From positions 1 through 5,266 of the forward strand of contig JAKBQK010000103.1 in NCBI GenBank assembly GCA_021835265.1: a DNA stretch of 5,266 bases, given 5' to 3'. The stretch comes from Thermoplasmata archaeon. GTDB lineage: Archaea > Thermoplasmatota > Thermoplasmata > Thermoplasmatales > Thermoplasmataceae. Below, one piece after another: positions 1,351 through 5,266 of the stretch. The notes beneath the pieces were generated by a model. It saw only the letters and a list, made by a program, of their open reading frames with translations. It did not search any database and had not been told where the DNA came from. Each line of letters starts with the position of its first letter. Position 1 is the stretch's first letter. The translations under genes and the position numbers were made by a program.

Positions 1351-1740
1351 ATGACAACAATATATGGACCGTTGAAATTTATGGCTGATGAATTTATGAA
1401 GAACGTAAATGATAGAGCTAAGGAAGTTCTAACTTATCTATACCCTCCAGTAAGGATGTATGAGGATAATGGAGAAATCGTGATTGAAGCTGACATGCCA
1501 GGATTTGATAAAAAAGATATTAAGGTAACATCAAGTAAGATGTCTATTGAGATATCCGCATCAAGAAAGTCTCCAGAGAATGTAAACATGTTGCTTGATC
1601 AGAGACCAGATAAAATTTGGAAATCAGTTAGGCTTCCAGTTGAACTTGACCATGATGCGGCCATATCAGCAAAATATACCTCAGGGGTTCTTTACGTAAG
1701 AGCACCAATTAAAGGGTTAAAAACCGTTAAGATAGAGTAG
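1351..1740 (+). CDS. hsp20: Small heat shock protein (Hsp20/alpha-crystallin family)
   Basis: 129 residues, near the small end for archaeal Hsp20. These proteins form large oligomers that hold unfolding proteins in the cytoplasm without ATP. After a short helical N-terminal arm (about 1-32), the alpha-crystallin domain runs from PPVRMYEDNGEIVIEADMPG (32-51) through KKDIKV (54-59), which matches the family's beta strands and the 'DMPGFDKKDIKV' type signature. It ends in the GVLYVRAP segment (112-119), equivalent to the family's GxLxVxxP-like motif. The tail KTVKIE carries a V-x-I version of the I-x-I motif that docks on a neighbouring subunit. The ATG at 1351 sits 25 bases after a TATA box, so it is well supported. 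The gene has its own promoter and a T-rich terminator, so it is probably monocistronic. No separate heat-shock operator could be identified. Confidence 0.93.
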   Translation: MTTIYGPLKFMADEFMKNVNDRAKEVLTYLYPPVRMYEDNGEIVIEADMPGFDKKDIKVTSSKMSIEISASRKSPENVNMLLDQRPDKIWKSVRLPVELDHDAAISAKYTSGVLYVRAPIKGLKTVKIE

Positions 1741-1819: not shown

Positions 1820-2200
1820 ATGGATTTAATGGGGATACTTACTGTTGTCAGTATGACAGCAACAAATTCAACAGGGTCCATTACTGTTTCGTCAGTTCTA
1901 AGCAATCCGTTAGTTGAGCTTGCATTAATATTCATAGATGGATTGCTTTTTGGACTGGGTATAAAGAAAGGTGTTTGGTCTGTGATCCTTATAGTGATCG
2001 CGGTGTTCCTTTCTGAATACATCAACTTTTCAGTATTGCCTAAAGCTTCACTGTCAACCTTTTATGACGATGTAAAGTCTCACATAGAGTATATAATAAC
2101 AAATATAAACAAGATAATTCCATTTTCCAATATAGGTGCAATTTCTATATCACTCATCTTGTTTATCGTGGGCTTTATTGTAGGCTACATGAAAGGATAA
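1820..2200 (+). CDS. Small hypothetical membrane protein, about three transmembrane segments
   Basis: 126 residues; I do not recognise the family. Hydrophobic stretches are seen at about 31-48 (LVELALIFIDGLLFGLGI), 52-70 (ending SEYINF) and 105-123 (a Gly/Ile-rich span ending in VGYMKG). A weaker hydrophobic patch lies at 3-11, followed by a Ser/Thr-rich stretch (12-28) that could face outside. Between the second and third spans is a polar, partly amphipathic loop (about 74-100). The acidic residue D40 lies inside the first span, followed by a GLLFGLGIKKG turn, which suggests a tight hairpin between spans 1 and 2. The start is supported by the TATA box 25 bases upstream. It has its own promoter, but lies only 97 bases before the ESCRT-like operon on the same strand, so a membrane partner role for that operon is possible but unproven. 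Confidence 0.75.
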   Translation: MDLMGILTVVSMTATNSTGSITVSSVLSNPLVELALIFIDGLLFGLGIKKGVWSVILIVIAVFLSEYINFSVLPKASLSTFYDDVKSHIEYIITNINKIIPFSNIGAISISLILFIVGFIVGYMKG

Positions 2201-2297: not shown

Positions 2298-2900
2298 ATG
2301 CCTTTATTTAATAGCAGAAAGCCGAAAGGCCTTGAAAGCCTTTCACCAGATGAAATTGAGAGCCTTATTCAGCAGACTAGAACAGAGATTTCCCTTATAG
2401 AAAAAGATAATGAGAGAAAACAGGAAAAGTTTAATTCTTTAATGAAAGAGGGTAGTAAAGCTTCTGGATCCAAAAGAGTTCAAATTGCTCAGGAGCTTGA
2501 ACTATTGGAAAGAAAGATCCATACCAACGAAAATCAGATATTGAACCACACTAAGAAAATTGAGTTAATGCAGGAGGTAAAGGAATCTAAAACTTCGGTT
2601 TCACCAAGCAGCGTGGATAATATTATTTCGAAAACCAATTCTAACGCCATTAAAACCAACATACTTCAGTCAAAGACAAAGAATAAGGTAGCACTACAGA
2701 AAACCGATGATCTCTTGAATACAGTAAGAGACCTGCAAATAGAAGATGATCAGGGTGCATCTGTTATGGGAAGTAAATACATGGAGATGTTTAAGGAAAT
2801 GGATAGAAATGATAATTCACTAAAACCAGGCAAGGTCAAAAAGACAGAGACAGAAGAAGATAATGACGAGAATACAGAGAGTGATGTGAAGGGAGAGTGA
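2298..2900 (+). CDS. Snf7/ESCRT-III-like coiled-coil protein, first gene of the Vps4 operon
   Basis: 200 residues, almost wholly helical and charged. It begins MPLFNSRKPKGLE, like the short hydrophobic-then-basic N-termini of ESCRT-III subunits that insert into membranes, and like the last protein of this operon. Residues about 17-50 and 58-95 form two long helices joined by EGSKASGSKR, resembling the alpha1-alpha2 hairpin of Snf7 proteins, where a Gly/Lys turn is followed by a helix of the type ELELLERKI. A Ser/Asn-rich linker (98-120) leads to shorter helices (about 128-147 and 157-170, KYMEMFKEMDR). The tail (178-200) has KVKK followed by a run rich in Glu and Asp. The ATG at 2298 is the only ATG after an in-frame stop at 2283. 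Its 3' end overlaps the ATPase gene (GTGA). The likely role is a filament subunit remodelled by Vps4. It is more diverged than the fourth gene, so a generic coiled-coil adaptor remains possible. Confidence 0.68.
   Translation: MPLFNSRKPKGLESLSPDEIESLIQQTRTEISLIEKDNERKQEKFNSLMKEGSKASGSKRVQIAQELELLERKIHTNENQILNHTKKIELMQEVKESKTSVSPSSVDNIISKTNSNAIKTNILQSKTKNKVALQKTDDLLNTVRDLQIEDDQGASVMGSKYMEMFKEMDRNDNSLKPGKVKKTETEEDNDENTESDVKGE
2891..2897 (+). promoter_or_regulatory. Ribosome binding site deciding the ATPase start
   Basis: GGGAGAG lies inside the end of the preceding gene. It ends at the first base of the GTG at 2897, which is too close for that start, but is 8 bases before an in-frame TTG at 2906. 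By spacing, TTG 2906 (protein beginning MDSDYLQIGG) is at least as likely as GTG 2897. Confidence 0.45.
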
Positions 2901-4099
2901 ATTTATTGGATTCAGATTACCTGCAGATTGGTGGATTGAAAAAGCTTATTGCTGACGATATAAAAATTGAAACCAGTATGGAGGAAAAGGGAAATATCAG
3001 GGACAGTATCATATTATGCGAGAAGATTATCAACAACCTTCATATGTTAAAGAAACTTGATGGCAACAATCCATCCTATGATGCTCTCATAAAATCCTGG
3101 GATAAAAGAAAAACTGAGATCTTGAATAATAATCCTAAAACTTTGAAAAAACATGAAAGTAAGCAGGATAGTAAAAAGACTAGTAATGGACTCATTGGTC
3201 AGATGGAAAAGGAATTTAGAAGTAGAATCATGTCTCTCATAAGTGAGTCAAATGTAAAGTGGTCGGAAATCGGTGGATTGGAAGATCAAAAGGAAATTAT
3301 CAAAGAAGCTGTTTTTTTTGCAATGGCTCAACCCGATCTTGATGTTAAGGTTCCAAACCTTAGAAATATTTTGCTGTTTGGACCTCCTGGAACTGGTAAA
3401 ACGACTATTGCAAAGGCAATCAGTTCAAATATTGATGCAACATTCTTTAATGTGCCAGTGTCAGAACTTATCTCTCGATATGTTGGTGATTCAGAGAGAA
3501 TAGTGTCCTCACTCTATACAGTTGCCAGGGAAAAAGCTCCTTCTGTAGTTTTTCTGGACGAAATTGAATCTCTCCTGAGACAGAGAGGTGACGGAAACAA
3601 AAATGCGGGTGCGGTTCTCCAGCAATTTTTATCTCAGCTTGATGGATTTTCTACAGATGAAAGTTTTGTAATGACTGTTGCAGCAACTAATGTTCCATGG
3701 GAACTTGATCAGGCAATTCTTTCCAGATTTGAAAAAAGGATATTCATAGGATTACCGGATGCGGAAACCAGAAAGAAAATAATTAGTATTCATACTACTG
3801 GCAAAGGATACAGGGTAGATGACTCGATAGACGATATAGTGGCCAATACCGAAGGTTTCTCCGGTCGAGATTTGTTTTATTTGTGTGCAGAGGCAATAAG
3901 GAATATGCTTAGAAGAACAAATAGGGTGATAATGGAAGATAAGGATAAGGTAATTTTTGGCTCTGAGAAGGTTACCTACAGGATTAATCCAATTACAAGG
4001 CAGGATTTTGAGGTTGCATTATCCAAGATTAAACCTGCAGTAAATGAGGAAATGAGTAAGAAATATTACAAATGGAAGGAGGAATTTGCAAATAATTGA
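2897..4099 (+). CDS. cdvC: Vps4/CdvC-type AAA+ ATPase with N-terminal MIT-like domain
   Basis: 400 residues, the usual Vps4 size. Residues about 8-78 look like an MIT three-helix bundle (IADD, then EEKGNIRDSIILCEKIINNL at 29-48, then WDKRKTEIL at 68-76), which in Vps4 binds ESCRT-III tails. A polar linker (79-100) precedes the AAA module, which starts at VKWSEIGGLEDQKE (120-133). Visible motifs are Walker A GPPGTGKT (162-169), pore loop SRYVGDSER (193-201), Walker B VVFLDE (217-222), sensor 1 ATN (263-265) and SRFEKRI (276-282) with arginine finger R277. GFSGRDL (320-326) follows, then a C-terminal KIKPAVNEE helix (377-385) of the kind found in Vps4 and its meiotic-clade relatives. It should form hexamers that use ATP to extract and thread ESCRT-III subunits at the membrane. 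The flanking Snf7-like genes support this. The gene overlaps its neighbours on both sides. The start may be GTG 2897 or TTG 2906. A single AAA domain rules out Cdc48/p97. Confidence 0.92.
   Translation: MNLLDSDYLQIGGLKKLIADDIKIETSMEEKGNIRDSIILCEKIINNLHMLKKLDGNNPSYDALIKSWDKRKTEILNNNPKTLKKHESKQDSKKTSNGLIGQMEKEFRSRIMSLISESNVKWSEIGGLEDQKEIIKEAVFFAMAQPDLDVKVPNLRNILLFGPPGTGKTTIAKAISSNIDATFFNVPVSELISRYVGDSERIVSSLYTVAREKAPSVVFLDEIESLLRQRGDGNKNAGAVLQQFLSQLDGFSTDESFVMTVAATNVPWELDQAILSRFEKRIFIGLPDAETRKKIISIHTTGKGYRVDDSIDDIVANTEGFSGRDLFYLCAEAIRNMLRRTNRVIMEDKDKVIFGSEKVTYRINPITRQDFEVALSKIKPAVNEEMSKKYYKWKEEFANN
4076..4084 (+). promoter_or_regulatory. Shine-Dalgarno site for the third operon gene
   Basis: AAGGAGGAA is a strong match to the archaeal anti-SD, inside the ATPase gene's 3' end. 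Its distance is about 11 bases to TTG 4096, 14 to ATG 4099 and 23 to ATG 4108. It favours the two early starts, both of which overlap the ATPase stop codon, over the last. Confidence 0.5.
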
Positions 4100-4764
4100 T
4101 GATTTCTATGAAAAAAAATAATGATTTTCAGTCACTTATTGAAAGTCTGGCATATTATCGTGGAGATTCCAGCAAATCAGAGGGTTTCATGAAAAAGTTA
4201 GTTGGATTGTGGTCTTCATATGGAGACAAAAAATTCCTGGGAAAAAAGGGGAGTAAGATTTTAAATAAAAGTCTTCAGGAGTTATATGTTATTATGGATG
4301 TATCCCGGGAACATATTGTAGAACTTCAGGACCTCATTAACAGGATGAAAGATAATTCAGACGATATGAATCACATAAAGAAAATTAGGGCAACAGACTC
4401 TTTGAATGCTGAAATTGCAAAGTATAACCACATGGAAGAAAAATATAAATTCATGTCAATGCTCCAATCAATTAATGAACTTATGTCTGAAAAAGATTCA
4501 AAATTCATGAGGAAGCTGGATAAAACCTTAAAGAATCGTCAGATGATAAGGGAATTTCAAAACACAGTAAAGGAAGAAATGAATGATCATGGACGGATAA
4601 TGGAAGATATGGATAATATTGAACTTTATTTCGAAACTATTACTGAAAAATCTACCTCTAAAGTGGCTAGTAATGAAAATACTATTCATGAACCTCAAAA
4701 AACTATTCCCAAGAAGGATAGTGAAGAGAAAGATGATGAGGACGAAAATCCAGAGGTGATATAA
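4099..4764 (+). CDS. Unrecognised helical protein with acidic tail, third gene of the Vps4 operon
   Basis: 221 residues from ATG 4099. A TTG at 4096 would add one residue, an ATG at 4108 would remove three, and TAA at 4093 closes the frame upstream. The ATG overlaps the ATPase stop as TGATG, typical of coupled translation. I do not recognise a family. It is mostly alpha-helical: a basic region (31-59, with KKFLGKKGSK at 44-53), then helices at about 58-86, 89-135 and 137-180 rich in Met, Lys, Glu and Asp (DHGRIMEDMDNIELYFETI). A Ser/Thr/Asn linker follows, then the tail KKDSEEKDDEDENPEVI (205-221). The basic start, long helices and Lys-then-acidic tail resemble ESCRT-III architecture, so it may be a highly diverged third subunit. 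A regulator or adaptor of the ATPase or filament is equally possible. The final NPEVI recalls the P-x-V part of MIM2 motifs, but only weakly. No membrane segment or enzyme motif is seen. Confidence 0.78.
   Translation: MISMKKNNDFQSLIESLAYYRGDSSKSEGFMKKLVGLWSSYGDKKFLGKKGSKILNKSLQELYVIMDVSREHIVELQDLINRMKDNSDDMNHIKKIRATDSLNAEIAKYNHMEEKYKFMSMLQSINELMSEKDSKFMRKLDKTLKNRQMIREFQNTVKEEMNDHGRIMEDMDNIELYFETITEKSTSKVASNENTIHEPQKTIPKKDSEEKDDEDENPEVI
4753..4760 (+). promoter_or_regulatory. Strong Shine-Dalgarno site that supports a TTG start at 4766
   Basis: GAGGTGAT is a full eight-base match to the complement of the archaeal 16S rRNA 3' end (AUCACCUC). It sits 5 bases before TTG 4766. No ATG or GTG occurs at a suitable distance, and the protein encoded from this TTG begins with an ESCRT-III-like N-terminus, so the site fixes the start. 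Confidence 0.82.
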
Positions 4765-4765
4765 T

Positions 4766-5266
4766 TTGAGCGTTTTCAACAGAAAATCTAAGGAAGAGCT
4801 TGAAGTTGAAACACAGATGAACATAAAGCTGCTTAAGAAGAAAGCAGAGGACTATGCTGGTAAATGTGATTCGATGGCACAAAAATATGATGCGCAAAAG
4901 GAAGCCGCGAGATCCATAGGAAATAAGAGTTTAGAGCAGGCTTTTGAGGAAAAGGCTAAAAATCTAAGAGTTCAGGCTTCGAAGATAAGATCATTTGTTC
5001 TTATAGTGGATGATATAGGCATGATGAAAGACCAGTCTGCATTGATGAACAGTTTTGCAGACACAATGAAGACTTATGTAAAGACCATAGGAAAAGGCCA
5101 GGCTAATGCCCAATGGATGTCCCAGATGGAATCACAACTAGATAGGGCCGTCGATGAAAGTGAGCGCGTTGGTGATCTTTTTGGTGGATTGCTCCAGGAT
5201 GTGGGTTTTAATCTTAATTTTGAACTAGATTCTATCGGGGGGGAAAAGAGTAACAATAGGAATGCA
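4766..5266 (+). CDS. ESCRT-III/Snf7-like protein (CdvB type), fourth gene of the Vps4 operon, 3' end cut by the window
   Basis: The frame opens at TTG 4766, one base after the preceding TAA, and runs without a stop to the right edge (167 codons seen). It begins MSVFNRKSKEELE, matching the MPLFNSRK start of the first operon gene and the short Phe-containing, then basic, N-termini of ESCRT-III subunits. A long alpha1 helix (about 9-50) turns at RSIGNKSLEQAF (49-60) into alpha2 (about 55-90: EEKAKNLRVQASKIRSF then VDDIGMMKDQ). A Met-rich segment SFADTMKTYVKTIGKG (96-111) and QMESQLDRAVDESERVGDLF (120-139) follow, matching the alpha3-alpha4 layout of Snf7-family proteins. From about 146 (VGFNLNFELDSIGG) a polar linker starts; the Vps4-binding tail probably lies beyond the window. 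It would polymerise on membranes and be taken apart by the neighbouring Vps4. A G7 run at 5237-5243 is a possible frameshift point. Confidence 0.82.
   Translation, partial: MSVFNRKSKEELEVETQMNIKLLKKKAEDYAGKCDSMAQKYDAQKEAARSIGNKSLEQAFEEKAKNLRVQASKIRSFVLIVDDIGMMKDQSALMNSFADTMKTYVKTIGKGQANAQWMSQMESQLDRAVDESERVGDLFGGLLQDVGFNLNFELDSIGGEKSNNRNA

Follow-up and report, generated by a model that had tools for sequence, protein, structure and literature searches.

A stretch of 5,266 nucleotides from a Thermoplasmata archaeon (contig JAKBQK010000103.1 of GenBank assembly GCA_021835265.1; this whole stretch is called the window) carries four tightly packed genes, named here P1, Vps4A, P3 and P4. The question raised by this locus is whether the four genes form a system of the ESCRT-III type (endosomal sorting complex required for transport III) and, if so, whether it is the one already described from the same group of archaea. 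Taken together, our results make it probable that the operon is an ESCRT-III/AAA membrane-remodelling machine distinct from the printed Thermoplasmata ESCRT set, serving budding, repair or stress rather than division. Of this reading, the homology of P4, the presence of AAA domains and the order of the genes are shown; filaments, tail binding, action on the membrane and GTPase control are what we infer.

All four open reading frames (ORFs) that a first-pass annotation had named were confirmed (Table 1), as was its assignment of the DNA to a Thermoplasmatales-type archaeon: the nearest named genome is that of Cuniculiplasma divulgatum. One C. divulgatum genome (G072, a single contig of 1,938,699 bases) contains the entire window with 99.37% identity, and the window locus in this near-identical genome is called L029. 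Other genomes and loci are likewise given by their G and L numbers.

The ESCRT-III homologue P4 and its gene order

By its sequence profiles, P4 is a homologue of ESCRT-III, that is, of Snf7. The survey set consisted of 117 genomes of the order Thermoplasmatales, and the profiles used were A8 (P1), A9 (P3), A1 (P4) and A7 (Thermoplasmatales Snf7). Profile A1 matched single ORFs in G259 (6.4e-22) and G198 (2.1e-19), and the P4-family relatives in these two genomes pass the Pfam Snf7 model with 31.3 and 29.8 bits, respectively, at a cut-off of 27.3. Profile A7 matched P4 directly (G003, 4.3e-10; G004, 3.1e-7; G005, 1.5e-4). When the P4 family was compared with Thermoplasmatales Snf7 by hhalign, the value was 87% over 182 columns. 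Since these three profile routes agree, we tie P4 to Snf7, and the earlier call of P4 as the second ESCRT-III-like protein of the locus is thereby borne out. Two results weigh against it. That is, the Pfam Snf7 model found no match in the P4 of C. divulgatum or of G333, and A7 did not reach the G072 P4 at E ≤ 0.001. P4 has no winged-helix Pfam match, and no useful relative was found among solved structures.

The complete P4, which has 199 amino acids in G072 (L029 9624-10223), often appears to end in a MIM1-like helix, a putative MIT-interacting motif. The tails were scored with the MIM1 consensus. The strict pattern was present in 16 of 29 P4 homologues, including that of C. divulgatum, as compared to a mean of 0.04 for shuffled tails; many of these rows are near-identical. 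It was missing in the other 13, which is a point against the ESCRT reading of the operon, and a looser pattern also failed in nine of these 13 (two rows of P4b, a second ESCRT-III protein considered below, and seven others).

The same gene order was looked for in other Thermoplasmatales genomes. P1 was found in 13 of the 117 genomes, P3 in 14 and P4 in 17; in a class-wide sample, P4 was present in 10 of 300 genomes. The Vps4A gene lies directly 3' of P1 in all 13 P1 genomes. P3 comes next in 12 of the 13 loci, and in the remaining one the contig stops within the ATPase gene. In 11 of these 12 the next gene is P4, the last contig stopping after P3. Two further contigs, L034 and L036, start after or within the ATPase gene and still show P3-P4. 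The order P1-ATPase-P3-P4 is retained between species with merely 27-31% identity in P1 and P3, and the arrangement is therefore not due to chance. The four tightly packed genes are a conserved operon in Cuniculiplasma-type Thermoplasmatales.

Neighbouring genes of the four are joined closely: P1 and Vps4A overlap by 4 bp, Vps4A and P3 by 4 bp, and P3 and P4 are separated by a 1-bp gap. In G072 a second AAA ATPase gene, vps4B (L029 10216-11352), overlaps P4 by 8 bp. Thus P4 is not necessarily the last gene of the operon, and a further ATPase gene lies beyond the window in this genome. Vps4B is found 3' of P4 in seven of 13 readable loci and another AAA gene in L031, while no ATPase follows P4 in the remaining five (L032, L033, L034, L035 and L036). 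The Vps4B of L041, from a metagenome assembly, is split into two ORFs (4784-5982), likewise that of L005, perhaps by sequencing error.

A genome scan with Vps4A gave five Thermoplasmata loci and one bacterial match (L006, Paenibacillus), which was dropped as a generic AAA match. In protein searches the relatives of P1 and P3 were only unnamed or "hypothetical" proteins, and the named hosts were Cuniculiplasma or Thermoplasmatota. A weak P1-like ORF of 50 bits was also seen in G153 (L064).

The helical proteins, the ATPases and the flanking genes

P1 had been described in the first-pass annotation as a Snf7-like hairpin. The AlphaFold2 (AF2) model of P1 (mean predicted local distance difference test, pLDDT, 74.7; predicted template modelling score, pTM, 0.52) shows a hairpin of helices 17-54 and 57-100, with pLDDT mostly above 90, followed by helices 103-112, 115-144 and 159-174. 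The C-terminal helix is conserved, with a KYMxxFxEMD-like sequence. When the model was compared with solved structures by Foldseek, 27 of the 50 listed rows were CHMP, Snf7, Shrub, IST1, Asgard ESCRT-III, PspA or Vipp1 chains, and the first row was CHMP2A-CHMP3 (probability 0.97, E 0.12). The P3 model served as a helical comparison of like size, and only four of its 50 listed rows were of the ESCRT-III type (CdvB2 filament, E 0.8-1.5). The outcome for P1 is therefore more than a generic coiled-coil result.

Several observations stand against this view of P1. No Foldseek match reached E ≤ 0.001, and VIA-align ranked the ESCRT chains among unrelated coiled coils and hairpins. The sequence of P1 gave no Pfam match to Snf7 and an hhalign value of 1.5% (0.9% for distant P1 relatives), and the comparison of P1 with P4 gave 9.4%, that is, no sequence link. 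A sequence link to P3 and a useful relative among solved structures were likewise not found. Thus the hairpin part of the earlier description stands as a predicted fold and the Snf7 part finds no counterpart in the sequence. We regard P1, on its model, as a candidate ESCRT-III-superfamily filament protein, and not as a member.

The AF2 model of P3 is a long hairpin (pLDDT 74.2, pTM 0.68), and the fold comparison gave no clear match, which we count among the points against the ESCRT reading of the operon. By sequence P3 was rejected as an ESCRT-III relative, the hhalign value being below 0.3%; with its positional counterpart the value was 28.8%.

Vps4A has a single AAA domain with intact Walker motifs (Pfam AAA, 129.7 bits), and its Vps4_C match (PF09336) has 23.1 bits, just above the cut-off of 21.3. 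Among 10 Vps4A relatives, at most nine match Vps4_C, which is not among the 25 families listed. For the C-terminal 149 residues, the best solved chain was the katanin MEI-1 (90 bits), aligned nearly end to end and including the RFEKR segment. The two-domain archaeal VCP-like chains scored 88.6 in sum against the same residues, with 36 and 45 per domain among the per-domain scores listed. The arginine-finger segment of Vps4A is of the RFEKR type and lacks the insertion of two residues that Vps4B has, and we take this form to be a marker of the Vps4/katanin group. The presence of Vps4/katanin-type features in Vps4A is thus supported at the level of sequence.

Other results do not favour a Vps4 assignment. 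The best solved chains for full-length Vps4A were two-domain VCP/p97 proteins, and the NCBIfam models of CDC48, PAN and CdvC score Vps4A alike. Five N-domains of Vps4A were scanned and gave no MIT match, and a single weak match to katanin-MIT (E 0.058) was seen in L030. By hhalign, the N-domain of Vps4A gave 6% with MIT-type N-domains, and that of Vps4B gave 68% with MIT-type domains. For the "MIT-AAA Vps4" proposed earlier, the AAA domain, Vps4_C and the likeness to MEI-1 speak in favour, and the MIT domain was not confirmed.

In the ATPase tree, which covered 51 rows of Thermoplasmatales enzymes only, Vps4A formed its own clade (support 100/99) outside the 37-row Thermoplasmatales Vps4 group (95/95). 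The outgroup was a 753-aa protein with two AAA domains, called VAT/Cdc48-type from its size and its two Walker A motifs; the L039 ATPase was entered uncut, as it had no match to the Walker A cutting pattern. As a further point against a Vps4 assignment, Vps4A and both domains of the Cdc48-type protein split off together from all other Thermoplasmatales rows (95/95) on long branches. Because long branches meet here, we are unsure of the exact placing of Vps4A. Vps4C, the third ATPase of C. divulgatum, shares a group (99/99) with the enzymes of Thermoplasma type and of FtsZ-less relatives. A second AAA ATPase, of 422 aa and on the opposite strand (L062:8514-9782), beside the ESCRT genes of the FtsZ-family-less genome G329, groups in the tree with the operon-end ATPase of L031 (98/97).

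The features of the window are listed in Table 1. A gene for a small membrane protein lies upstream of P1 in 12 of the 13 P1 genomes, and also near the ESCRT genes of other Thermoplasmatales. The family occurs in 76 of the 117 genomes, many of them without ESCRT matches, and the idea that it is ESCRT-specific was dropped for this reason. The protein is a possible membrane partner of the ESCRT operon, not exclusive to it. The Hsp20 gene is an upstream neighbour in 10 of the 13 P1 genomes, and this chaperone probably stands outside the machine. Upstream of it are a glycosyltransferase gene on the opposite strand and a gene end that is a MeaB-like protein when complete in L029. A tRNA search found none. 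After vps4B, L029 carries a convergent gene (11349-13511) for a 720-aa protein that has the look of a repeat protein, apparently of beta-propeller type, and is hydrophobic over a stretch at its C-terminus. L001 9672-11837 encodes a protein of similar appearance.

Table 1. Features of the window, in the order of the operon and then its upstream neighbours
Feature	Position	Strand	Description
P1	2298-2900	+	200-aa coiled-coil protein; from the ORF list
Vps4A (AAA ATPase)	2897-4099	+	400 aa; N-terminal helical domain, Pfam AAA, Vps4_C
P3	4096-4764	+	222-aa helical protein; acidic low-confidence C-terminus in the AF2 model
P4	4766-5266, open at window end (167 aa)	+	ESCRT-III (Snf7-superfamily) by profiles
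Small membrane protein	1820-2200	+	126 aa; conserved hydrophobic segments
Hsp20-family chaperone (archaeal Hsp14 type)	1351-1740	+	NCBIfam Hsp14, 119.5 bits, cut-off 100

The function of the operon and its possible GTPase partners

For the membrane-remodelling machine that we favour, the following action can be considered. P4, probably with P1 in view of its predicted fold, would polymerise on the membrane's inner face, where P3, perhaps with the small upstream membrane protein, would serve as a membrane or filament adaptor. Vps4A, and Vps4B where present, would take hold of the filament proteins by their C-terminal tails and draw the subunits through the pore of the ring, and this would drive constriction and recycling; the AAA motifs, the MIM1-like tail of P4 and the gene order point to this step. 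FtsZ/tubulin-family and SepF matches were found in all 13 P1 genomes, two of the SepF matches being below the curated cut-off. Since every P1 genome has these genes, the machine more likely serves to bud vesicles, to repair the membrane or to remodel it under stress than to divide the cell, and it is unlikely that the operon is the sole division machinery.

A Double-GTPase/GAP1 pair, which sits outside the window operon, may act as an upstream switch, as its linkage in relatives suggests. In C. divulgatum a second cluster (L067:13859-19901 and L068:48-5749; G072:C1, about 1118-1130 kb) contains the ESCRT-III protein P4b, a HEAT-like protein, a GAP1-like protein, a Double-GTPase, a protein of about 620 aa and Vps4C. 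The Double-GTPase has a hydrophobic N-terminal region and scores 45.6 bits at a cut-off of 27. Further clusters of this type lie at L008:1315-10546 and L035:284-9027. Both clusters are contiguous in one close relative, G148, where P1, Vps4A, P3, P4, P4b, the HEAT-like, GAP1-like and Double-GTPase proteins, a 624-aa protein and Vps4C are encoded in one 12-kb stretch, and in three distant relatives homologues of P1 and P4 share a single cluster with Double-GTPase and GAP1-like genes. The Double-GTPase cut-off is passed by six of the eight proteins at the GTPase position, those of G333 and a second one of C. divulgatum failing. One of seven proteins at the GAP1 position (G259) passes GAP1-N2, and the others match GAP1 domains below cut-off, as do all HEAT matches of the HEAT-like proteins. 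In G259 a protein-kinase gene (L037:15668-17239; Pkinase, 80.4 bits) comes after the ESCRT-III/Double-GTPase/GAP1/Vps4 cluster.

From this linkage we tentatively propose a GTPase-switched ESCRT of Thermoplasmatales, an idea we hold as somewhat doubtful. That is, a membrane-anchored Double-GTPase and GAP1 would control the assembly of P1, P4 and P4b, and disassembly would fall to two or three different ATPases of the Vps4 type, among them one of a separate lineage. An ancestral cluster would then have been split in two in C. divulgatum, the window being one half.

The same genes suggest another explanation, a conflict or stress system with a Double-GTPase/GAP1 switch that responds to attack on the membrane and uses the ESCRT proteins as its effector, the attack coming for example by viruses or episymbionts. 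PspA is a relative of Snf7. In the available part of PMC7159879 the DO-GTPase/GAP1 pair is the core of conflict systems, and that of PMC11237479 notes DO-GTPase with pspFABC operons. Such a pair lies beside ESCRT-III and Vps4-type genes in the relatives and in the second C. divulgatum cluster. However, PADLOC (E ≤ 0.01) returned nothing for P1, P3, P4, or the GTPase or GAP1 of G259, and its IetA-/TRIP13-type AAA matches for the two ATPases (best 139.5 bits) were read as generic. Synteny of the neighbouring genes extends across species, as would not be expected of a typical defence island, and the GTPase cluster of C. divulgatum is about 0.23 Mb away. We therefore consider this explanation unlikely.

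Less probable again is a cell-division machine, in which the operon would give the scission step of cytokinesis alongside FtsZ. In its favour, according to a proposal in the available text of PMC10936438 the ESCRT of Thermoplasmata takes part in division, that of the FtsZ-less ones included, and we found A7-type ESCRT-III in seven of the 16 order genomes without an FtsZ/tubulin-family match. However, P1 was present in none of these 16, FtsZ-family and SepF genes are kept by every P1 genome, and in C. divulgatum it is another locus that corresponds to the published set.

A Cdc48/PAN-like unfoldase with coiled-coil cofactors, that is, a protein quality-control operon beside an Hsp20 gene, would suit the equal CDC48, PAN and CdvC scores of Vps4A, its whole-length VCP/p97 matches, its Cdc48-type neighbour in the tree and the conserved Hsp20 gene, but we hold it to be very improbable in view of the three profile routes that make P4 an ESCRT-III homologue and of the RFEKR segment that Vps4A has in common with katanin, without the insertion of Vps4B.

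If the operon is an ESCRT-III/AAA machine as we think, it would add to the euryarchaeal ESCRT a further lineage of Vps4-type ATPases and two unstudied filament or adaptor families. C. divulgatum is a cultured, wall-less archaeon. As it has two separate sets of ESCRT-type genes in addition to FtsZ-family and SepF genes, it could reveal a role of ESCRT-III beside other division machinery. The linkage of ESCRT to a GTPase is the boldest part of our interpretation; if functional, it would mean an archaeal GTPase switch wired to ESCRT-III and would bear on the origin of regulated membrane remodelling.

Comparison with known systems

The first-pass annotation had called ESCRT-like genes of such archaea sparsely described. 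This has to be amended, since the available part of PMC10936438 already reports minimal ESCRT loci for a clade of Thermoplasmata and lists C. divulgatum among their holders. These loci combine ESCRT-III and Vps4 with an arCOG07400 barrel, and a division role is suggested there for the Thermoplasmata ESCRT and recounted for Cdv archaea. As far as that text describes them, the published loci and the window locus have in common ESCRT-III with an AAA ATPase in one locus, the same archaeal group and the lack of CdvA. The window locus differs in having P1 and P3 in addition, often together with a second ATPase, and in its Vps4A, which falls outside the Thermoplasmatales Vps4 group in our tree. The closest G072 counterparts of the published pair are P4b (G072:C1:1118358-1118945) and Vps4C (L068 4652-5749), at a distance of about 0.23 Mb from the window operon. 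Thermoplasma-type loci carry a gene upstream of Vps4 that is probably arCOG07400, judging from its position and size; it was found in 24 of the 117 genomes, and no homologue of it was matched in G072. The window operon was thus rejected as a plain member of the minimal set by the ATPase tree and the absence of the barrel in G072. Because closer counterparts lie elsewhere and the barrel was not found, we regard the window operon as probably a second system, distinct from the set in the available text of PMC10936438. Among the matches listed in a literature search on ESCRT in Thermoplasmata and Cuniculiplasma, which left most subscription journals uncovered, we recognised no other description of the window locus.

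The layout of the window was said at first pass to be unlike the cdvABC of Sulfolobales, and this was upheld: the CdvA Pfam model gave no match above cut-off in the 117 genomes and two weak matches below it, neither in G072, and the Sulfolobus acidocaldarius control was positive. Identity with cdvABC was rejected on this ground. Common to both is ESCRT-III with a Vps4-type ATPase in one locus. In contrast to cdvABC, the window system is without CdvA above cut-off and without a winged-helix Pfam match on P4, it often has two ATPases, and its hosts keep FtsZ-family and SepF genes.

With the katanin/spastin/Vps4 group of AAA proteins, Vps4A shares the resemblance of its C-terminal 149 residues to katanin MEI-1, RFEKR included. 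It differs from them in being archaeal, in having an N-domain not recognisable as MIT and in its place in an ESCRT-III operon.

The Double-GTPase/GAP1 systems of PMC7159879, as the available text presents them, share with the clusters of the relatives a Double-GTPase with a hydrophobic N-terminus beside a GAP1-like gene. The main text of that paper has no occurrence of ESCRT, Vps4, Snf7 or "euryarch-". In contrast to those systems, the GTPase pair here adjoins ESCRT-III and Vps4-type genes.

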